From a virus, in the IMG/VR virus record IMGVR_UViG_3300008259_000013, positions 67,288 to 131,287 of that record: a stretch of DNA of 64,000 nucleotides. One strand, given 5' to 3'. The notes beneath the pieces are model-generated. The model ran no database searches and had not been told where the DNA came from. It saw nothing but the letters and a program-made list of their open reading frames with translations. Numbering within the stretch: position 1 is the first letter of the stretch; each line of letters starts with the position of its first letter. The position numbers and the translations under genes were made by a program. Below are positions 7,751 through 58,158 of this stretch, piece by piece.

Positions 7751-8158
7751 GTGAACATCATTGAATGTTATCAGCTACTCAACGAGTACTTCAACAGCCG
7801 CAGTTGCTTCAATCTAAAGAAAAATAGGAAAGAAGTGATTTTGGTGTCTGACGATGAACCATCGGAAAACGCGGCGCTTGTCTGCGCTCTGAGAGAAATG
7901 GAAAAAGCCAATGTGCTTCGCTCATGCGTTCTAGACGGCGAAGAATATTGGGTTTTAGTGAAGTCTCTTGAGTCCTTTTCTCAGACGATAGAAGTAAGCG
8001 GGCTGGTAGCCGCTGGCATAGCTTCTATTATTAATAATATGTGCCAAGAGTTAAACAGCGAGTCAGAGAAGTGCGACGTTTTAAATATTACAGAAAAGGA
8101 TTTAAAGAATTTAATTTATATCGCTTCTAAGGCCACTCCAGACTCGCTTAAGAAATGA
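7751..8158 (+). CDS. Unknown conserved-looking phage protein
   Basis: This 135-residue protein begins at GTG, chosen because the promoter -10 box ends 5 bases upstream. It is alpha/beta in composition, with an N-terminal helix (NIIECYQLLNEYF), a strand around EVILVSDDEP, and a Cys-containing middle that could form a winged-helix-like fold (ALREMEKANVLRSCVLDGEEYWVL). No catalytic motif is recognised. The promoter of the structured RNA begins 1 base after its stop. Confidence 0.6.
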   Translation: MNIIECYQLLNEYFNSRSCFNLKKNRKEVILVSDDEPSENAALVCALREMEKANVLRSCVLDGEEYWVLVKSLESFSQTIEVSGLVAAGIASIINNMCQELNSESEKCDVLNITEKDLKNLIYIASKATPDSLKK

Positions 8159-8159
8159 T

Positions 8160-8187
8160 TTGACTTTTCCAGAAAACAGGTCATAGT
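8160..8187 (+). promoter_or_regulatory. Sigma70-type promoter for the structured RNA and sigma factor
   Basis: TTGACT (8160-8165), a 16-base spacer and CATAGT (8182-8187) predict a transcript start at about 8193-8195. That is the first base of the 5' strand of a 10-bp long-range helix, so the promoter and the RNA structure support each other. Confidence 0.75.
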
Positions 8188-8192
8188 CATCC

Positions 8193-8646
8193 AGACTGTT
8201 GTGCAGAGGTAACCTGAGCAAAACCATGCTCACTTAAGAATAAAATCTTATTTAAACTCGTAAGAGACAGCAAGCCCGTTGAAAGACGATAGGAAATTGG
8301 AGGAAACTCCAGCGTGCGTTCGGGAGAGGTCGCGTCGTAACTGAGTCCTATTTAAAACTACTAGAAACTTCATTCCTCTCAAAGGAAAAGGCGATGGTGG
8401 AACGTCTGAAAAAAAGTCGCTGCGCAAACAACAGTCTAGCATAGCCAAAAGTAGTCACTAGCTAAACGGACTCACTAAAGCCGGAGATGCGATGACTGAT
8501 GTGGGTACTTTTGGGTGAATAATATCTTAGATAACAACATCTAAGCTGACCTACTATTGCTTAATAGCCAACTCAAGGAAAAGTTATAAGGCGATGGTGG
8601 AGAGGCAAAGTCTCTGTGGCAACACAGAGCATTAAGGAAAAAGTTT
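8193..8646 (+). ncRNA. Large structured RNA or leader with nested pseudoknots
   Basis: No convincing coding frame is seen in this 454-base stretch, but there is dense RNA structure. Three perfect long-range helices occur: 8193-8202 with 8428-8437 (10 bp), 8342-8348 with 8468-8474 (7 bp), and 8445-8453 with 8506-8514 (9 bp). Their order makes two interlocking pseudoknots. Local hairpins lie at 8216-8231, 8235-8250, 8298-8311 (GAAA tetraloop), 8373-8387, 8391-8420, 8526-8545, 8554-8567 and 8612-8629 (GCAA tetraloop). No U-run follows the last hairpin, so transcription probably enters the sigma factor gene, which has AAGGAAAAAG just upstream of its ATG. Size, ornateness and phage context recall GOLLD or ROOL RNAs, but I do not see enough to assign it to either. 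A regulatory leader or a processed RNA are both possible. Confidence 0.75.
8388..8601 (+). repeat. 14-base motif repeated exactly 200 bases apart
   Basis: AAGGCGATGGTGGA occurs at 8388-8401 and again at 8588-8601 inside the structured RNA. In both copies an AAGGAAAAG element lies just upstream. A third AAGGAAAAA-type element precedes the sigma factor ATG. The first copy supplies the 5' strand of the 8391-8420 stem. Confidence 0.85.
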
Positions 8647-9255
8647 ATGTCTAAATCAAAATCTATTAAAGATCTTGATCTTGTTTTAGTTAATAAGATC
8701 AAAGATAATAACTGCAACGACAGTTTCGAAAAATTATCAGGTTCTTACGATAATTTTTATTTCTCTATCGCAAGAAAATATTCTCAAGCATTAAACAGAA
8801 TGGGAATGAGCAAAGAAGAGATAAAGTCTGAAAAAGATTTTATTCTTTACAAAGCAATTCAGTCTTTTGATGCGAAGCAGAAAACGAAGTTTTCAACTTG
8901 GTTTTGCAACTGTGCGAGATATCATTTTCTTAATTACATTAATTCAAACAAAAAATACATCTTGAACGAGGGTTTAGGTGTTGATGTTTATATTAATAAA
9001 GATATCTTAACTGTAACAGATAAGAATAATGATTTATTTGATTATTTGTCTTCTCTTCTTTCTTCTTTCAAAGATCCTAGAGTTAATGAGGTATATAAAT
9101 TAAGGTATTTTTCTAACACGGCTAAACCTGTTACATGGAATAAGATCGCTAAAAAACTAAATATAAGCACACAGACAGCAATCAACCTGCACGAAAAGGC
9201 TAGAGTTTTCCTAAAAAACAAGATTCTTAGTAAAAATTCTTTCGATTTGGTTTGA
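8647..9255 (+). CDS. Phage RNA polymerase sigma factor
   Basis: This 202-residue protein has a region 2-like segment at about residues 28-105, including KAIQSFDAKQKTKFSTWF and a CARYHFLNYINSNKK helix. This matches the 'FDpxxgxkFsTwa...R..i.n' core and -10 recognition helix of sigma70-family factors. Residues 145-195 (TWNKIAKKLNISTQTAINLHEKAR) form a region 4 helix-turn-helix for -35 contact. It probably redirects host RNA polymerase to a later promoter class, likely including the minus-strand structural genes. Its gene is preceded by the structured RNA and an A/G-rich ribosome-binding region, unlike its leaderless neighbours. Confidence 0.85.
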   Translation: MSKSKSIKDLDLVLVNKIKDNNCNDSFEKLSGSYDNFYFSIARKYSQALNRMGMSKEEIKSEKDFILYKAIQSFDAKQKTKFSTWFCNCARYHFLNYINSNKKYILNEGLGVDVYINKDILTVTDKNNDLFDYLSSLLSSFKDPRVNEVYKLRYFSNTAKPVTWNKIAKKLNISTQTAINLHEKARVFLKNKILSKNSFDLV

Positions 9256-9279
9256 CTTTTTGGTTTTTTGGGTCATAAT
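9252..9279 (+). promoter_or_regulatory. Sigma70-type promoter for 9289-9585
   Basis: TTGACT (9252-9257, overlapping the sigma factor stop codon), a 16-base spacer, CATAAT (9274-9279) and 9 bases lead to the ATG at 9289. Confidence 0.75.
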
Positions 9280-9288
9280 GTGTTTAGC

Positions 9289-9585
9289 ATGAATGCTACC
9301 AAGACTGAAAACAAGTGGGATAACCGCGAACTGGGCGCCTTGTGGACGAAAGTCAGCAAGGATAAATCACAGAAGTATATGACTGGTCATATTAACACCT
9401 CTTTGGAGGGAAAGATTGACATTGTCATTTTCTCGAACAAGGAAAAGAAAACCGATAAATCTCCAGATTTTCGGATTTATGCTTCTGATCGCTCGGACAA
9501 GCAAAAGGATCAGGCTAGCAAAACCTCTCCAGCACTTGCCCAAAAAGTGCAATCGGAGTCTGAGGATGACGACGGAGTTCTATAA
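9289..9585 (+). CDS. DUF736-like small protein
   Basis: This 98-residue protein starts at the ATG at 9289. An in-frame TTG further up lies inside the promoter and is not used here. WDNRELGALWTKVSKDK, a KYMTGHI strand and KSPDFRIYASD resemble the DUF736 and related small phage families: a GALW element followed about 40 residues later by a PDFRI strand. The C-terminal 30 residues are polar with an acidic end (ESEDDDGVL), as in some single-strand DNA-binding proteins. The function of the family is unknown. It is monocistronic, with its own promoter and terminator. Confidence 0.6.
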   Translation: MNATKTENKWDNRELGALWTKVSKDKSQKYMTGHINTSLEGKIDIVIFSNKEKKTDKSPDFRIYASDRSDKQKDQASKTSPALAQKVQSESEDDDGVL

Positions 9586-48441: not shown

Positions 48442-51400
48442 TTATTTTCTATTTATAATTTTAATTACAGAAGATTTAGAGAAATCGTCAAATTTAATAT
48501 CTGGCGCACTCTTTATCTTGCTTATTGTTATATTCACTTCTATATCAGAATTATTAATTATATTATAATTTGCATCTACTGTATTTTCTGGGAACAAGCT
48601 TTCTACATAAAGACCGCCTATTTCCATTTCGCTTTGTGGCAGTAAAGTATTGTCGGCTGTTTGAGATTGACCCAATAGCTTTTTGATATTATTTATTTGA
48701 GTTGGGTTTAGATTTGCGTCTAAGCCAATCGTAAGCTGTCTATTATCAGGCATCTGCCTAACTGGGCTCAAAGCAGAAAAGAACGAATAATTATAATTAA
48801 ATATAGGAGACCTAAGCCCCGTCTTCTTTATCTCGCATCTTTTAAATGTTATTGTTTTATTTGTGCCTTCTAGATTTATAGTTATAGTTTGGCTGTTGTC
48901 GATAGCGCTAATAGTCCACCAATCATCAACGTAATCGGAGTTTAACCAAAAAGCCGACTGGTCTCTTGGTATCCAAGCTATAATACTATTTGCAGTTGAC
49001 TTGTACGCATTTCTAATTTGAGCTTTGAATAACTCAAGTTGATCCACGGCGACCTCTTCTTCTTCAGTTATGCTTGCGTCTGCCCCACCTTCTTCCCCTT
49101 TCTCCTCGGCTTTATTAAACGGCCTGTCTATGTCTTCTACGACTTTATACAAACGAACGAAATTAGGATACTTTATTTCATAAGTTGTTACATCTTCTCC
49201 CACAAATGTCTCGCCATCTGAATAAAACTTTCCTTTATATTTTAAATAAGGCAACTCTGTAGTGTTGGTAAACGCCGTGTCTGTTGGTATATTTATATTA
49301 TCAAAAAAGCTCTGGCTTATGCTTACTTGATATTTAATTCCATTTTGTATGCCCGGCAAAGTATAAGTCGATTGGTAGGCATCAAAGAATAAAAATCTAT
49401 AAATTGTTTCATGGCCGATTCCTACTTCGTATCCTACCACATTAGAAGGCGAATCCGTTGGTATGTCTTTGCCATTATAGTAATTTCTAAGAGCCAGATT
49501 TATTGTCGTAGAAGTTCCATCTTTAGATAATAGTTTAACATATGATTTTTGCTCCACTTGATTGTCGTCTAGTATTGGCAAAAGCTCTTCATTTCTTATT
49601 ATTCCCAAATTTAGAGTTATTTCTCTCTGTGTCGATATCGCCGTGTTAGGATTGAATATGCAATAAAATTCGTCCCTAGCTTTTGCTTTTTTCAAATATC
49701 TAGAAACAACTCCGCTTGTCGGACCAGCTTCTACGATCATCACTGAATTTCTATAGACTTTTCTTCTTCTATTTTCATCACTTAATATATTTACAAAAAT
49801 ATCTCTTGGACAATTATTTATCAAGAAAATTTGCTGCCCATAGCTTGGTGCAGTTACCGTCAAGTCATTATTATTATCTGTTAATAGATAATGCCCGGCT
49901 GTTGTTATTCTATAGACTGGTTTTAACAAATTATACGATTGAGTATTATTTGTTAAATTCATCGAAGCTAAATTTGTTATATATATGCCTCTGAAATTAT
50001 TAACTACTGTTTCTATAATGGCTTGATCAGCATAATAATAAGAAGAAGCGTACGTCTCGTCTTTTATTAAAGGAGTGATTATGATATTTTTATTATCTTT
50101 ATCTGACTCTTTTTCCCCAGCAAAACTAACGTAATCATAAATACCATTCAAGAAAAACTTCAAATCAGTTTTTAATAAATAGTTCGTAGAAGAATCTTTC
50201 TTTGATATATAATAAATTCCTTTTTCGTAAGACCCCAAGAAACTAACTCTGGAATCACTTATTTCTATAAAAGATTTTGGCGGTATAGAACAAAAAGTCT
50301 CTGTAGCAAAATCAAAAAAGATGCTTAAATAATAAGGTGTATTATTGTAAATATAGAACTTTTCTGATCCAAGAAGCCCAGCGTTTAATAGCTTCAAACT
50401 ATACGAGTCGAAGAAATTGCCAGAACTGTTTACTTGAGAAGAGCCGTAAATAAACAATTTACTATTAGCATCATAAGAAGTTAAATCTTTAAGGTCAAGA
50501 ACTCCGAATTCTCTGTTTTTTATTATTATTTCTTCTGCTTTATTTTTTGAGTTATATCTAAATAAATATGTATACTTGCTATTGCCTATATTTTGAATGA
50601 CCTTTATTCTTGCTCCAAATTTTAGATTTGGATAAAGTTCATTTACTGTTTGTGTTAGATTTTCTGGCGCTCTTCCTTCTGCATAGTTGAGCGTTGTCAC
50701 TGAAAAAACTGACGAAGCATTTAAATCTAAGCTAGATGCAGTAAACAAGTTTTGAGTGGCATTTCTAATTACTCTTGTCAAAGCTCCATTGCCTAGCAAC
50801 GAATTATTAGAGCCAATGTACATTCTATATTTGCAAGGATTAAAAACATAAAAATCTCTAAATGATTTATCAATAAAACTATTGATGTCTACATTGAATC
50901 TATTAAAATTTGGAAGATATAAAAACTCATTGCCCCCTACTATTTCCGTGGTTGATAGCCCAGATATTCCTTTCAGATTTCTAGCCGTAGCAAATACTTT
51001 TTTAACTTGAGGCAAACTAGATGTTTCCTTTACCCAAGCAGAGCCGCTCACAGAATATAAAGCTATTGAATTTACATCAAGTAAATTGCTAGTCACCGCT
51101 GTGGAATAATTATAAATTGAATTCGGAGCAGAAGAATCTGACTTTACTAAATTAACAAATAATATCTTTTTGCCCGATAGCAATGAAGCCAAAGTCGAAC
51201 CACCAATACTTATATCAAGATTTGGCAAGTAAAATTTAGATGAGTATTTAGTTATTGGAATTAATATAACATTTGGCAAACCATTTATTGCATTTTGTGA
51301 TTTAAAAAACTTAGTTAAATCAGTATGATTTGTATCTATAACTTTTAAATTATATGCCCCGGCGTTGAACTCATCACTTACTCTGTCGGTCAAATAAAAT

Positions 51401-54400
51401 TGCTCCTTCTTTATCTTTGTTCCATCGTAAGATGCAAAAAGATAAAAATCATTGACAATATACTTTTTATCGCCTAATTGAGTTATGTCGATAGCTTTTC
51501 TCCCATAGCAGTAAATAATTTTCGAAGTTGAAACTGATACGGAAGAATAAACGTCAAAAACTGAATAATCAATATCCAGTTTAATAGCGTCACCATCTAT
51601 ATCAATAAACGCATCTTGTATTAAATCTATCTTAGAAAAACCAGCCGCCCACAAGGAAGCCAAAGGATGTTCTGCTTCTAAATCAAAGGCTTGATTACTT
51701 AGCGCTATAGAGGTCGGCAAATAAGACACGTTTTCTACTTCGCCAAAAATGTTTGAATCGCTAAAATCAGTAGTATCTGTAGTAACTGTGTAAGGCGCTC
51801 CAGTATATGTAAACAATTTTTGATTATTACCAGAAGATGGCAAAAGCGTATGCACAAGAACTCCACTCAATGTTTTTATTTCATATGGCCTTCCTGAAAC
51901 ATTTTTAATTACAAAAGAAATCGTTGCTGAAATATCCGGCAAAATAATAGAATCTACATCTGCTTTGTCTGCTTCTATTATATAATAAAATGTTGTGCCT
52001 CCTGATTTTCTAGTATTAGTTCTTTCAGAATTTACTTGCGCTATGAAGAATTCTTTGTTATTGTATATTGGATATACATAATTCGCTCCAGAGTTTTTTA
52101 CTAAGCGGTTTTTCTTAAGAGTTTTTGTAACTGAATCTACTGAAACTGTAACAGTATCATAAGCAAAATTTATTAAAATCTGATCTGTCGCTAATGCATT
52201 AGGAAAGCTTTTAGCAGTCGATCCGCTCTCACTTTCGTAACTGAATATTCTGGCGTCCGGTATTAAAGGCTTAGAAGCCTGAAGTCTTCCATTAACATAC
52301 TCATCTGGAGCATAATCAAAATCAATAGAATTAACTTCTTTTATTCTATATAGATTATTGCCATCCGCTGAATCAAATGATTGTATTCCGACGGATTGTT
52401 CCAATGTCGGCAAAAATATCTTTCCTTTATACCCATATTTTCTATTATAGCTATCTTTTATTGTAAATGTGTCTATTTGGCTATTTCTAATATAAAAATA
52501 GTCTTCATGATATCTATCTATTACATTATCCTCTAAATCAATAACAGTGCCGTTTACATTTCTGCTTAAGAAACTTGTTCTTTGCAATATTGGCAAAGCG
52601 TCAGAACTTGAACCAGTTACCCTTAAACATATTGAATTTTGAGCTAAATCCCCTATTTCATTTATTTCCAATGTAGAAGGATTATCTTCTGTAGATATTA
52701 TGTTCTCGGTATCTTTTACTGATTCTTTATTAATTTTATTTGGTAAAAATCTATTTCTGCAAATCAGGAACAGTTCTTTATTTTGAAGGCTAGAGGCAGG
52801 CGGCAAGTTGATTTGAGTTCCGCAGAAATTCAAGTCTAAAATATTAATAGAAGACGAAATCAAAGAATTATCTATATCAAAATAAAAATGACTCAGAGTT
52901 TCGTTTAGGATATCTAATCTGACAACTTGCGTCGAGCCTACTGTCACCAACATTGCTCTTGCTATTTGGTTTTCTGCTAGCGTATAGACTATATTTTCCT
53001 GGGTATTTCTATAGAAAAATACCGATTGGCTATTTTTATTTACAAAATAAACGAAAGACTCTTTCGGCAACCCTGCGTCTAAAGATTTAAGATCTATATA
53101 TTGAACCAAATCACCTTTAAGCAAAACTAATTGCTCTCTTGAATTTGACAACTCAAAGAATGGCGAAGAAGAAGGATATATAATAGAGTAAGTCACCAGT
53201 GAAGCAGATTTTTGCGTTACTGTTAACTTGAAATCTTGATATTGCCTTTGCAAAACTTCTATAGAAGAGCCATTAATTATTCTTATATTTAATGCTCTAT
53301 TTATAGATTCATCTTTCAGGAAAAAATAATCTCTAGTCGTTCCAACGGCGGTTGAGAATTGGGACAGGATTATATCTGTATCGTCTTTTAAGAGTTTAGT
53401 AGAATCTTCTTCTGTTTCTTTAGCTTTTAAATATATTTTTATTCCATCAAAATAAGTTTTCTGAGATTTTGAAGCGGATGAGCCATTCCAAGAAACATAG
53501 TTGAAAGAATCCGCATCTAAACTCAAACCATTGATAACTAATGAGTCTTTAGAAAAATTATAAATTGGCAGATTTGCAAAAGAATCAGCCGAAGAAAATT
53601 CTCCAGTTGTATGATTAAAATTTATAAACCCTTCTTTAGGATGATAAATTTTAGAGTCTTGCATTGTTACATTTGAATATGTACTTTGCGTTTGGATAGA
53701 CTTAGTCACTCCATCGTCTGAAAACAACAGTTTTTTTGTTTGATTTGCCGATATAGAAACCGTAGATCCAAATGTTACGTTTATAGAAGAATTAGAGTCG
53801 TTTACTAGAGTTAAAGTTTTCGACGCTATTGAGCTGCTATTTAAAACAGTTACGTTCGCACTTAAATAAAGAATATCATCATCTTGTTCTGCGTCTAGTA
53901 GATCAAAAGAAGAAGAAGGAAGCGAAGCAGCATTTGCTACAGTAATCACCCCATTGTTGGATATTTTAGCGTATTGATTAGTGTTTACTGATGATCCCCC
54001 TACAAAACAACTTGCGTTTCCAGTGTTTAAAACATAAGATTCAAACGAAGATGGAATATTCTCTAAAGATGCGTCCGCCTTGTCTGTCACGAAATAATAT
54101 TCATTATAATCTTGATTTATTTTGAAACCAGAGGTTTTAGACTCAGGGTTATTGAAGTCTAACAGTTGACTATAAGTTGGGCTAGAAACGCTTACCGGAG
54201 TGTAAGAAGCCACATTCTCGAACTTTGTTACTGTGTTTTGCTGGGAGTTTGAGTCCCCAACTTCAAAACCATATTCGCTGGCTAGAGTTTCTTTTTTCTT
54301 TACGACAGAAGATTTTATTCCGGAAACTACAATATCATAATAATTATTGCCATTGGCACCGAAATTATAAACTCCTAGATCCACATTTCTTTGACTAACA

Positions 54401-57400
54401 TCTGGTATAACATATGAAAAACTATTAATTCCAGAAGGCTCCGATCTTAAGAATGTCAGTTTGTTGTTTCTATCTTTCTGATATATATTGTAATAACCAC
54501 ATCCAGCAACCTCATTCCAATCTACCTTAATCGGCAAAAAGTTTGTTTTTTTGATTACATTCGCTGAGTCAGAAGAAACTACTAATTTTTCTTGCTTAAA
54601 AATCCTAAATTCGTAATTCGCATCGTCTAAGAAAAGTGGCAAATTAGTCTTGAAAGCCACCATTGATAAATAATTTGGCGTCTCTAAGTCCTCTGCTGAA
54701 AAATAATAAGGAGATATCGCCGAATATTCCGCTGAAATAATATCTTTCGAGAACCCAACGTCTTTCGACATCGTTGTCCACCCAGTAGAAGCCCCAGGGC
54801 CAGAAGATCCAGACGATCCAGAAGATCCAGCAGGTGCAGTTTTTAACTTGTATTGCAAATCATACTCCCATCCATAATTAAAATTTATGGAATATGGAGA
54901 TCCAGCATCGCCTATTAAAACTAAGTCCTTAGTATAAAAGTTATATTTTACTTTAGTTATCTGAAGCCTTCTTGTGTTCCTGAATCGCCCCTTGCCGTCT
55001 AGCACTTCTGTTGAAGGCCTTAATTTTGTTATGTAGCCATTTTCTAGTGTTTCTAAGACATAATTTGATTCGTATTTTTTAGAAGTTTCGTTTTCTTCTT
55101 TTATGTAAATATGATTTTCAAACAATCCGTCGCTTAAAGCGTTTATAGAAGATGTCGTGATTGGTTTGCCCTCATAGTTTTTAGAGGTATAAGAGCCATT
55201 CGGGAAAAAGAATAATGTCGAAAGAAGTTCTTTGGTTTCTTCTTTATCGTCTTGAAAAAATCTAGGTTCAGAGAAATTAGAAGAATCTCTTGAGCCGTAG
55301 ATATTATTATTTATTGGATTTTGATTAAAAAGTGTCCATTGATGATTTTCTAAATTTGCTACTACTTTATAATTATATGTTTGTATATTAATTCTAACTT
55401 TGGAAGGATCTAAAAGTGAACCAGAGTTATTTGCTATTGTGGTATTAATATATGATTTTGTTATCTTTGCATCGCCTTCGTTTTCTTCTTGTTGAAAAAC
55501 TGAATTTGTTAGTCCTTGTTTTATAAACTTCAAAACCACCAAATTTGAGAAAGACGCAGAAGTGGCAGATTCGCCGTTTTGCACATTACTCTTTATAAAA
55601 GACAGCGGAGCAGAAGAACTATTATATCCATATAAATGATAAGAATAAGATTTTGTATCTTGGTTCGATATTGTTATATTTGATGGAGGGGCGGCAGTCG
55701 CAGACCAAGCTCTAAAATTCGAAGTATCATCATAGCTAAAGCTGTTGCCAGTCACATATTCAATTCTGAACAATTTTTCCACTTCAATATCTTGGTCTTT
55801 GAACGATACTGCCCCGAAATTTTCGCCTGTCTGATAAGATAAACTGGCGGCAGAATTTTCCAAAAATCTTCTAAAAGACACTTCTTCATTGTAATCTTGC
55901 GCTGGATAGTAGTAATTTTGTTTACTTATTGTAAAACTATTAGCTTCGTATGGCTCATATGTTTGAACGCAGTAGAGTTTTTCGACCTCTTCAGCCGCTA
56001 AATCTGCGTCTCCCGGCGTATAAACTCCGCTTAAAATAGCTTGGTTAAGCTCAAATGCTTCGTTTGCTTTGTAAGACTTGGTGTATATTTCTCTTTCTAC
56101 AAACACCCTAGGAGCTTTCGCGGTATTAGAACTAAAAGAATTCACTCCATCTGCGATAGCCGGGCCGCCTATTCTCTCATTTACATCTCGCAAAGCTTGA
56201 GAAAACAAAGTATTATAACTATTTTCTGATAAAGAAGGATAAACATTAAAAGATGCTACATAATTTTTAGTATAAAAATAATTAACCGCTTTAAGCCAAG
56301 ACTCTTGATTTACGTAATTATTTTTTGTTATTACCCCATCGCTTTGTATTTGAGTAACTGAACCGTTTTGTATTTTTAAACCGTCTGAAGCGTATCTGTT
56401 GTTATCAAAAAGCGCTGTGTCTCCCTTGCAAAGTCCTGTAGCGTCTATAAAATAGCCATCACAAGTAGAGTTTACTACAGTTCTAAAAACAGGCTCTGAA
56501 GCAGTCGAATTTTTATCTTCATTAATATAATAAGCCAAAACCCCGAACTGATCTCCACAAGACACAAAAGTAGGGCTTAATCCATAGTTTGACAGAGGAG
56601 TAACTATGTAACTTTCTCCGGTATTTAGATAATTTGAATAGAAGTCTCTAGTTATTATTTTTTTAGGAAGAGGAAAATTCGGCAAAGCTGTTTTATAAAC
56701 AGGCATTTCATTATTTGCTTCCGTTAGCAAGTCTTGATCATTTTGGTCTATTTCAGCTCTGGTTTCCCAAGCCTCAGTATTTTCTGCCCTAGAATCCTCT
56801 TCTCCAAAATCATCGTTATAAGCTTTAGCTAAAGCATCAAAATTATCCTGTATTGTTTTAGCCAATTGACTTTGGTCTTCTTCGTCTCCTGCTTCTGGAA
56901 TTTGTATATCTTGAGCGTATTTTTCTGATTCATTTAATTGCTCTACGTCAATCAAATCTTGAACGTTTTCATATCCGAATGGCTCACCATCTTCGCTTAT
57001 TCTTGGATAAACTGCGCCACCTGCATTTAATGATATATTAACAGCACCAGCTCCTAGATTATAACTTGACATGACATACCCAGAAACCGCTGGTTTTTCT
57101 CTTGTGTTATATCTTTCTACTTGGACATCTAATTTATAAATTTCTTCTGTATCGCCAGTAGTTAGGAGAATAAACTTAAACAAGTTATCGCTTTTGCTTA
57201 ATTTGAATCCAGTGAAGAATGAGTCGTTCTTGATTTCTCTTGTTTTTATTTTGTCTGTATCTAATATATTTTGGAACTCTTCTTTAGTGAAAGAAATCTC
57301 TGTCACAGGTTCAAATGCATAACTTATTTGGCCATCTATTACTCCAGAGACCTCTTCCTTGTATTTAGAGTAGTCTATTATAGCCTTGCCATCTGCCGTT

Positions 57401-58158
57401 AAATCTGCATAATCATAAATACCAAGTGGCTCGCTTGCTCTAGAAATTCTATACTTTAAAGAAGTTTGGTTCTCTAACTGGAACGGTATTTCAAAAATTG
57501 AATTATCCTGCGGTAAAGAATATCCACTATCATTATATAAAAATTTGTATCTAGTTGTTACTTCATTTCTATAGCCCACATATCCAGAATCAATATATGA
57601 ATAAGTAGCATCAGTATTATTAGTGTATAGTGAAATATTAGTATTAGCCCAGTCTTCGCCAGAAACAGTTAATAGATCATTATTTGTTGACTGAGATTTT
57701 GTTAAACCTGTAATCTCATATCTTCTATATACTTTGCCAGGAAAGTCCATATCTGGCATAATAACATTTGGCTTTGACCCAGAAACGAATCTATCTGTTA
57801 TTTCAAAATCTCTTAAGTAATTGTAACCATCAATACCTAATAGCCCTTCTGTTATAAAAAACCTTGCTTTTGGGGCTTCTCCTTCGAAGTTGATGATAGA
57901 GAACTTTTTGCCTGTGACTGTAAATTTTGATGCGACGATGTCTTCCACCAACGGTCTTGGGACAGAATATCCATTAGGGCTATGGTTTGGGTTTTCGAAA
58001 AACGAAATCCAAAGGCCGTAAGTATATTTAGAAAAATCTGGTGTTATTCCAGAGCCCCCGCCGCTGCCAGAAGAACCAGATGAGCCAGAAGATCCTGATG
58101 AACCTACAGCACCTAAAACTGTTGTTATAAAATTTTTATTGTCTGTTTCTACGCTCAT
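48442..58158 (-). CDS. Giant virion-type protein, 3238 residues
   Basis: At 9.7 kb this is the largest gene in the window. The start is the ATG at 58158, one base after the upstream stop; a TTG 15 bases earlier overlaps that gene. Two Gly-Ser-Ser triplet linkers are visible: a run of Gly and Ser at about residues 19-37 after a short N-terminal arm, and GSSGSSGSSGPG near residue 1130. The rest is beta-rich and low in Cys, with Tyr/Asn/Ser-rich strands and a repeated strand-loop style suggesting tens of small beta domains. A long acidic-helical insert lies near residues 420-485. No protease, lysozyme or coiled-coil tape-measure signature is evident. It is likely a giant fibre, tail-tip or adhesin-like protein. 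Confidence 0.8.
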   Translation of the reverse strand: MSVETDNKNFITTVLGAVGSSGSSGSSGSSGSGGGSGITPDFSKYTYGLWISFFENPNHSPNGYSVPRPLVEDIVASKFTVTGKKFSIINFEGEAPKARFFITEGLLGIDGYNYLRDFEITDRFVSGSKPNVIMPDMDFPGKVYRRYEITGLTKSQSTNNDLLTVSGEDWANTNISLYTNNTDATYSYIDSGYVGYRNEVTTRYKFLYNDSGYSLPQDNSIFEIPFQLENQTSLKYRISRASEPLGIYDYADLTADGKAIIDYSKYKEEVSGVIDGQISYAFEPVTEISFTKEEFQNILDTDKIKTREIKNDSFFTGFKLSKSDNLFKFILLTTGDTEEIYKLDVQVERYNTREKPAVSGYVMSSYNLGAGAVNISLNAGGAVYPRISEDGEPFGYENVQDLIDVEQLNESEKYAQDIQIPEAGDEEDQSQLAKTIQDNFDALAKAYNDDFGEEDSRAENTEAWETRAEIDQNDQDLLTEANNEMPVYKTALPNFPLPKKIITRDFYSNYLNTGESYIVTPLSNYGLSPTFVSCGDQFGVLAYYINEDKNSTASEPVFRTVVNSTCDGYFIDATGLCKGDTALFDNNRYASDGLKIQNGSVTQIQSDGVITKNNYVNQESWLKAVNYFYTKNYVASFNVYPSLSENSYNTLFSQALRDVNERIGGPAIADGVNSFSSNTAKAPRVFVEREIYTKSYKANEAFELNQAILSGVYTPGDADLAAEEVEKLYCVQTYEPYEANSFTISKQNYYYPAQDYNEEVSFRRFLENSAASLSYQTGENFGAVSFKDQDIEVEKLFRIEYVTGNSFSYDDTSNFRAWSATAAPPSNITISNQDTKSYSYHLYGYNSSSAPLSFIKSNVQNGESATSASFSNLVVLKFIKQGLTNSVFQQEENEGDAKITKSYINTTIANNSGSLLDPSKVRINIQTYNYKVVANLENHQWTLFNQNPINNNIYGSRDSSNFSEPRFFQDDKEETKELLSTLFFFPNGSYTSKNYEGKPITTSSINALSDGLFENHIYIKEENETSKKYESNYVLETLENGYITKLRPSTEVLDGKGRFRNTRRLQITKVKYNFYTKDLVLIGDAGSPYSINFNYGWEYDLQYKLKTAPAGSSGSSGSSGPGASTGWTTMSKDVGFSKDIISAEYSAISPYYFSAEDLETPNYLSMVAFKTNLPLFLDDANYEFRIFKQEKLVVSSDSANVIKKTNFLPIKVDWNEVAGCGYYNIYQKDRNNKLTFLRSEPSGINSFSYVIPDVSQRNVDLGVYNFGANGNNYYDIVVSGIKSSVVKKKETLASEYGFEVGDSNSQQNTVTKFENVASYTPVSVSSPTYSQLLDFNNPESKTSGFKINQDYNEYYFVTDKADASLENIPSSFESYVLNTGNASCFVGGSSVNTNQYAKISNNGVITVANAASLPSSSFDLLDAEQDDDILYLSANVTVLNSSSIASKTLTLVNDSNSSINVTFGSTVSISANQTKKLLFSDDGVTKSIQTQSTYSNVTMQDSKIYHPKEGFINFNHTTGEFSSADSFANLPIYNFSKDSLVINGLSLDADSFNYVSWNGSSASKSQKTYFDGIKIYLKAKETEEDSTKLLKDDTDIILSQFSTAVGTTRDYFFLKDESINRALNIRIINGSSIEVLQRQYQDFKLTVTQKSASLVTYSIIYPSSSPFFELSNSREQLVLLKGDLVQYIDLKSLDAGLPKESFVYFVNKNSQSVFFYRNTQENIVYTLAENQIARAMLVTVGSTQVVRLDILNETLSHFYFDIDNSLISSSINILDLNFCGTQINLPPASSLQNKELFLICRNRFLPNKINKESVKDTENIISTEDNPSTLEINEIGDLAQNSICLRVTGSSSDALPILQRTSFLSRNVNGTVIDLEDNVIDRYHEDYFYIRNSQIDTFTIKDSYNRKYGYKGKIFLPTLEQSVGIQSFDSADGNNLYRIKEVNSIDFDYAPDEYVNGRLQASKPLIPDARIFSYESESGSTAKSFPNALATDQILINFAYDTVTVSVDSVTKTLKKNRLVKNSGANYVYPIYNNKEFFIAQVNSERTNTRKSGGTTFYYIIEADKADVDSIILPDISATISFVIKNVSGRPYEIKTLSGVLVHTLLPSSGNNQKLFTYTGAPYTVTTDTTDFSDSNIFGEVENVSYLPTSIALSNQAFDLEAEHPLASLWAAGFSKIDLIQDAFIDIDGDAIKLDIDYSVFDVYSSVSVSTSKIIYCYGRKAIDITQLGDKKYIVNDFYLFASYDGTKIKKEQFYLTDRVSDEFNAGAYNLKVIDTNHTDLTKFFKSQNAINGLPNVILIPITKYSSKFYLPNLDISIGGSTLASLLSGKKILFVNLVKSDSSAPNSIYNYSTAVTSNLLDVNSIALYSVSGSAWVKETSSLPQVKKVFATARNLKGISGLSTTEIVGGNEFLYLPNFNRFNVDINSFIDKSFRDFYVFNPCKYRMYIGSNNSLLGNGALTRVIRNATQNLFTASSLDLNASSVFSVTTLNYAEGRAPENLTQTVNELYPNLKFGARIKVIQNIGNSKYTYLFRYNSKNKAEEIIIKNREFGVLDLKDLTSYDANSKLFIYGSSQVNSSGNFFDSYSLKLLNAGLLGSEKFYIYNNTPYYLSIFFDFATETFCSIPPKSFIEISDSRVSFLGSYEKGIYYISKKDSSTNYLLKTDLKFFLNGIYDYVSFAGEKESDKDNKNIIITPLIKDETYASSYYYADQAIIETVVNNFRGIYITNLASMNLTNNTQSYNLLKPVYRITTAGHYLLTDNNNDLTVTAPSYGQQIFLINNCPRDIFVNILSDENRRRKVYRNSVMIVEAGPTSGVVSRYLKKAKARDEFYCIFNPNTAISTQREITLNLGIIRNEELLPILDDNQVEQKSYVKLLSKDGTSTTINLALRNYYNGKDIPTDSPSNVVGYEVGIGHETIYRFLFFDAYQSTYTLPGIQNGIKYQVSISQSFFDNINIPTDTAFTNTTELPYLKYKGKFYSDGETFVGEDVTTYEIKYPNFVRLYKVVEDIDRPFNKAEEKGEEGGADASITEEEEVAVDQLELFKAQIRNAYKSTANSIIAWIPRDQSAFWLNSDYVDDWWTISAIDNSQTITINLEGTNKTITFKRCEIKKTGLRSPIFNYNYSFFSALSPVRQMPDNRQLTIGLDANLNPTQINNIKKLLGQSQTADNTLLPQSEMEIGGLYVESLFPENTVDANYNIINNSDIEVNITISKIKSAPDIKFDDFSKSSVIKIINRK

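Follow-up and report, generated by a model that had tools for sequence, protein, structure and literature searches.

A conserved pseudoknotted RNA ahead of a sigma factor operon in uncultured phages, with a duplicated strand that suggests a switch

Results

The RNA locus, its promoter and coding status

The window, i.e. the whole stretch of 64,000 nucleotides that was analysed, corresponds to bases 67288-131287 of an IMG/VR virus record (G000) with a total of 174,551 bases. Other genes on this phage record are a terminase, an rIIA-like gene and one for a virion structural protein, the relatives of which occur mainly in cyanophages. The locus considered here comprises the following features:

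7751..8158, + strand: conserved upstream gene of about 135 aa, outside the RNA (synteny; predicted winged-helix-like)
8160..8187, + strand: sigma-70-type promoter of the RNA (TTGACT 8160-8165, 16-nt spacer, CATAGT 8182-8187; 9/12 matches)
8193..8606, + strand: structured RNA of about 400 nt (33 distinct homologues plus L080; fold z-score -3.6)
8612..8629, + strand: hairpin CUCUGUG-GCAA-CACAGAG before the sigma gene (fold prediction, sequence check)
8647..9255, + strand: sigma factor gene, presumed regulated (Pfam Sigma70_r2 26 bits, cut-off 24; PHROG sigma factor)

The predicted start of the RNA, at about 8193, is the first base of helix P1, as an earlier note on this DNA had proposed, and sigma-70-type promoters likewise precede homologous RNAs, with 12/12 matches in L080 and 11/12 in L043. 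Over the 454 bases between promoter and sigma gene (8193-8646), stops interrupt every plus-strand frame and no plus-strand ORF of at least 50 aa was found, in agreement with the non-coding character first ascribed to this stretch. Its fold outperformed 100 of 100 dinucleotide shuffles. Read as a leader, the RNA would extend to 8646. Both GNRA loops described earlier were recovered, namely GAAA in hairpin P5 (8298-8311) and GCAA in hairpin 8612-8629.

A further promoter match in the window (9252-9290, TTGACT-16-CATAAT) ends 11 nt before an ATG of the DUF736-like gene, the message of which would therefore be nearly leaderless, in contrast to the long leader of the sigma gene. Elsewhere, a long collagen-like Gly-X-Y stretch (GSTGGTGGT...) open in several frames was observed at 557-1480 of the window, suggestive of a tail-fibre gene in which the frame may change. 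The minus strand carries two giant ORFs, of 3,238 and 3,511 aa, at 115729-125445 (window 48442-58158) and 139627-150162 of the record.

Homologues and limits of the family

A search using the sigma protein as query returned 21 loci. The RNA was present at most of the better-matched ones, although in some of them it was located about 1 kb upstream of the sigma gene and not adjacent to it. Pattern scans with the conserved core raised the set to 33 distinct RNAs, and a further pattern yielded one distant relative, L080, likewise located just 5' of a sigma gene. Loci L073-L079 and L081, six of which were read, gave no profile match and were rejected as relatives.

All RNA homologues were found in IMG/VR contigs. 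The core patterns had zero matches among 84,980 species genomes; three versions of the RNA, used as blastn queries against 50,697 phage records, produced no homologue (a single short hit of 31 nt), and the sigma protein had no match in 50,697 phage records. Relatives in cultured phages, sought through the RNA, the sigma or the upstream protein, were not found. Comparison with the Rfam 15 covariance models gave no match for the window RNA, either at the gathering cut-off or at E<=10, and none at E<=1 for nine diverse homologues. This applies to tmRNA, RNase P RNA, group I and II introns, the known riboswitch families, GOLLD and ROOL, the latter two being those to which the earlier note had been unable to match the RNA. 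ARAGORN detected neither tRNA nor tmRNA in the window.

Conserved fold and interlocking pseudoknots

The core fold, on the + strand throughout, consists of the following elements, listed with the evidence for each:

8193..8202, +: P1a 5' arm, partner 8428-8437 (10-bp helix); compensatory at 7/7 positions, 17 lineages
8203..8206, +: P1b 5' arm GCAG, partner 8420-8423; compensatory at 4/4 positions, 14 lineages
8216..8231, +: local hairpin GAGC/GCUC; other hairpins take its place elsewhere
8259..8287, +: most conserved core, CGTAAGAGACAGCAAGCCCGTTGAAAGAC; alignment; source of the search pattern
8275..8278, +: PkA 5' arm CCCG, partner CGGG 8321-8324, forming a pseudoknot with P4; arm-swap
8289..8293, +: P4 5' arm, partner 8347-8351; compensatory at 5/5 positions
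8298..8311, +: P5 hairpin with GAAA tetraloop; arm-swap, top covarying column pairs
8312..8335, +: P6, stem 8312-8316/8331-8335, loop containing the PkA 3' arm; column pair 8313-8334 in the best five
8373..8387, +: P8 hairpin UUCCU/AGGAA, 5' of repeat copy 1; alignment, sequence check
8415..8419, +: PkB 5' arm AGUCG, partner UGACU 8493-8497, interlocking with P1 and P10; compensatory at 3/5 positions
8445..8453, +: P10 5' arm, partner 8506-8514 (9-bp helix); compensatory at 8/8 positions
8453..8472, +: hairpin AGUC/GACU inside P10; alignment

In an arm-swap test, cognate helix arms were compared with arms exchanged between lineages (14-17 lineages). The proportion of pairs formed by cognate and swapped arms, respectively, was 97% and 48% for P1a (17 lineages), 100% and 64% for P1b (14 lineages), 99% and 54% for P4, 100% and 54% for P5, 99% and 87% for PkB (17 lineages) and 91% and 48% for P10, with p<5e-5 in each case. 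Values for PkA were 100% and 95% (p 0.0005), and a UCCG/CGGA double change at one position of this helix was seen in L007, L013/L019 and L062. Covariation, which the earlier note had put forward as the check on its fold, is present in these helices, and the structured RNA that it had placed between the promoter and a sigma gene is borne out by them as well as by the Sigma70_r2 match above cut-off.

Since the arms had been picked by hand, P1 and P10 were retested with regions set only by conserved anchors. This automated test, performed on 18 RNAs including one that was mis-anchored (L055), gave p<5e-5 for each helix, and two informative control region pairs gave no signal. A tree-based covariation test, run on a sequence-only alignment and of little power, placed its best five column pairs of about 125,000 all in P5 (8300/8309 and 8301/8308), P6 (8313/8334) and P10 (8450/8509 and 8452/8507).

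P1 crosses PkB and PkB crosses P10, so that two interlocking pseudoknots are formed. This topology had been recognised earlier from three long perfect helices. The 10-bp (P1) and 9-bp (P10) helices are exact and covary, but the 7-bp helix between them (TGAGTCC/GGACTCA, taken to be 8342-8348/8468-8474) is not conserved: close relatives L008 and L010 cannot form it, and its formation would be at the expense of P4 and of the local hairpin 8453-8472. The middle helix is thus PkB (8415-8419/8493-8497). The fold has been kept by evolution across about thirty versions in an uncultured group of viruses infecting bacteria, and the structured RNA family is real and, judged by Rfam 15 and by the open literature covered here, previously uncatalogued.

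Gene neighbourhood

Nearly all loci with enough sequence displayed the gene order winged-helix-like gene, RNA, (dNMP kinase), sigma, DUF736, glycosyltransferase. In most of these phages the upstream gene (7751-8158) is the first one on the plus strand after the strand switch. It matched neither Pfam nor PHROG, and its structure model (pLDDT 88.6) had weak PDB matches (E>=0.016), so that 'winged helix' is to be taken as a lead only. A role of this gene as obligate partner of the RNA was considered and rejected, as L080 and L043 have the RNA and the gene is missing from their available sequence.

Departures from this arrangement were of several kinds. In the sister phages L014-L018, L020 and L021, dNMP kinase and sigma are kept and the RNA is absent from that place, which indicates that the RNA is not required for the sigma gene in every phage; the absence from homologues that the earlier note would have counted against a role of the RNA was therefore encountered in part, in these phages, with the operon retained. 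Promoter-like sequences occur between RNA and gene in L013, L019 and L063. A tRNA directly beside the RNA was found in L012/L040 only, and the tRNA-Gly of L012 lies between RNA and gene. These intervening elements imply that RNA and gene need not be coupled. Clusters of three to eight tRNA genes were also observed in L030, L031, L038, L039 and L041, several kb from the RNA and on the opposite strand.

Duplicated strand and anti-repeat

Three further features, also on the + strand, concern a sequence that occurs twice in the RNA:

8388..8401, +: repeat copy 1, AAGGCGATGGTGGA (repeat search)
8588..8601, +: repeat copy 2, AAGGCGATGGTGGA, identical to copy 1 in the window (repeat search)
8551..8562, +: anti-repeat, CTACTATTGCTT; 12-bp complement, including G-U, to both repeat copies

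A direct repeat of 12-17 nt with a spacing of 185-214 nt was present in 26 of 30 RNAs, and shuffled sequences reached 12 nt in 3 cases out of 600. Repeats were absent in L055/L056 and weak in L007. The repeated sequence itself varies between lineages (GGCGATGGTGG, GGCTGACAGTC, GCTGGCAGTTC, GCTGGGAGTC, GGATAAGCAGTC and others), whereas the two copies inside one RNA are identical or nearly so. As copies stay alike while lineages differ, a shared partner is the simplest cause.

A scan along the RNA for such a partner gave a signal only in the stretch just 5' of copy 2. The predicted duplex between cognate anti-repeat and repeat had a mean of -10.4 kcal/mol (14 lineages), compared with -6.2 (sd 0.6) after shuffling of the repeats. 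When the anti-repeat was taken from another lineage, the mean was -8.9 kcal/mol, a difference with p 0.007 (0.015 on 11 lineages) that is optimistic because the region was selected after the scan (best window p 0.016 of about 35). In L013, L019 and L062, the copies of which are clearly different, the anti-repeat fits copy 1 better; L012 has poor complementarity, and that of several other lineages is modest. A pairing of anti-repeat and repeat thus appears moderately supported by these comparisons of sequence.

Two other origins of the repeats were considered and rejected. Small ORFs starting in the repeats (AUGGUGGAACGU...) are open in some lineages and stopped or startless in others, so that conservation of the repeats as coding sequence was discarded. 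The repeat does not appear to be antisense to a phage message either, since no site of the right sense with at most one mismatch exists in the 174-kb record. It is worth noting that in L058 an ATG of the 3' module could serve as start of the dNMP kinase frame (8672-9274, minus strand), which would then run in frame through copy 2 (MENVSKLAVGKRIIG...), and that copy 1 of this locus has an ATG at the equivalent position (MEKLAV...).

The distance from copy 2 to the next ORF is often only 28-60 nt, and what fills it differs among lineages. In L008 and L010 (analysed as L042 and L044), the ribosome site and start codon of sigma pair with a segment that begins within copy 2. The copy 2 of L061 gives rise to a terminator-like hairpin (AAGCUGG/CCAGCUU) with a U-run after it, and in L043 and L080 terminator-like hairpins stand immediately 5' of the sigma start. 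The window itself displays neither a terminator nor an obvious hairpin sequestering the sigma start. Across lineages, pairing of copy 2 with downstream sequence was not significant (p 0.38), which argues against a common expression platform; a candidate platform linked to the putative switching strand is found in L061, in L008/L010 and perhaps in L043, and is not general.

Discussion

Function of the RNA

The duplicated strand suggests that the RNA works as a switch, and the reading that we favour, at a probability of roughly 45%, is that of a cis-acting leader switch of the (dNMP kinase-)sigma operon, a function deduced from sequence features. The RNA would be the long 5' leader of this operon, in which dNMP kinase precedes sigma in many relatives. 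Its 5' part would fold into a compact core of P1, P4-P6 and PkA, with P1, PkB and P10 interlocked, and copy 1, within the core, would compete with copy 2, near the 3' end, for the single anti-repeat that immediately precedes copy 2. One state would have copy 1 held by the anti-repeat in a long-range helix, with copy 2 free to act on downstream sequence, through a hairpin covering the ribosome site or through a terminator, depending on the lineage. In the other, anti-repeat and copy 2 would form a local hairpin. Some signal, be it a metabolite, a protein or the timing of transcription, would choose between the two states. Here we infer switching, signal and direction of control; the promoter-like sequence, fold, duplication and conserved position are features of the loci themselves.

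In favour of a leader switch, nearly all loci of sufficient length have the RNA upstream of sigma or dNMP kinase-sigma, and the RNA resembles riboswitches and attenuators in its conserved fold within the 5' leader of a gene encoded on its own strand. Complementarity at p 0.007-0.015, missing in some lineages, may reflect two pairings of one strand that exclude each other. Against it stand the absence of a common platform, the weakness or loss of repeats and anti-repeat in some lineages, the intervening promoter-like sequences or tRNA, and the sister operons lacking the RNA. To our knowledge, the 400-nt core also exceeds known riboswitch aptamers in size, which counts against a switch.

Nearly as likely is a stand-alone, trans-acting structured RNA that is simply located ahead of the operon and possibly forms an RNP or RNA assembly, comparable to GOLLD and ROOL. 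The repeats might then be two sites for one fast-evolving partner, or provide alternative intra- or intermolecular contacts. That the RNA has a promoter of its own, from which transcription is predicted to begin at the first base of P1, is consistent with this, as are the promoter-like sequences 3' of the RNA in L013, L019 and L063, the tRNA in L012, the terminator-like hairpins in L043 and L080 and the lack of a common expression platform. However, in most lineages the interval from RNA to gene is short and contains no promoter match, so that the RNA is there the leader of the message; moreover, no mRNA target of the repeat was found in the 174-kb record, near matches being of the same sense as the genes. 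The earlier note had left leader switch and stand-alone RNA side by side, and the evidence is still divided between them: repeat, anti-repeat and position speak for the former, intervening promoters, tRNA and terminators for the latter.

A replication primer of the ColE1 RNA II type, in which two homologous segments compete and which primes near the divergent gene junction, is improbable. There is an analogy with the alpha/beta/gamma competition in RNA II, and the RNA does lie near the point of gene-strand divergence in most lineages. However, the cumulative GC skew of the record, which may be a fragment, reaches its minimum at the record end and its maximum at 107 kb and shows no extreme at about 75.5 kb, where the RNA lies, and neither a primer site nor origin repeats were identified. 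A ribozyme or intron-like element, with an anti-repeat aligning two identical cleavage or splice sites, is least credible of all, for although two identical sites, one guide strand and a compact pseudoknotted core would suit it, none of the group I, group II, RNase P or self-cleaving families of Rfam was matched, P1 joins the supposed 5' exon to the supposed intron, and no gene is interrupted.

Returning to the leader switch, its most complete form would be that of a new family of large pseudoknotted phage RNAs in which the interlocked core switches by strand exchange, one anti-repeat being shared by two identical copies of a lineage-specific repeat, and so times expression of the phage's sigma factor and the passage from one transcription programme to the next. 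As a whole, this proposal should be regarded as rather unlikely.

Comparison with known systems

Few large structured RNAs are known from phages. GOLLD and ROOL, which form homo-oligomeric RNA cages, resemble the present RNA in being large, multi-pseudoknotted non-coding phage RNAs from environmental samples. Unlike both, the RNA described here sits ahead of a sigma operon and carries an internal duplicated strand. Many GOLLD members exceed 800 nt and are often found near tRNA islands (PMC12286853). The present RNA, in contrast, is about 400 nt long, is not located in tRNA islands as a rule and has no Rfam match.

OLE RNA is likewise a large ornate RNA with a conserved complex fold. It occurs in bacteria and is not known from phages, whereas the present RNA comes from phages and is without Rfam match. 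In ColE1 RNA II, two homologous segments compete for one complementary segment (the alpha, beta and gamma elements), and the same three-segment competition in a structured transcript may be recognised here. However, RNA II primes the replication of a plasmid and is accompanied by an antisense RNA I, and no sign of antisense control or of an origin was found at the present loci. Riboswitches and attenuators offer a further, probable likeness, that of one strand complementary to two alternative partners in a 5' leader directly before a gene. The RNA described here differs from them by its much larger core, the absence of a shared expression platform and of a known ligand, and, in a few lineages, the promoters or tRNA that separate it from the gene.

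Beside these systems stands a compact family (about 400 nt) of more than 30 distinct sequences, positionally tied to a sigma factor and bearing an unusual duplicated strand that changes in sequence between phages while its copies stay alike. It provides a testable case either of a phage timing its transcription programme by a large RNA switch, or of an ornate RNA with a separate job.
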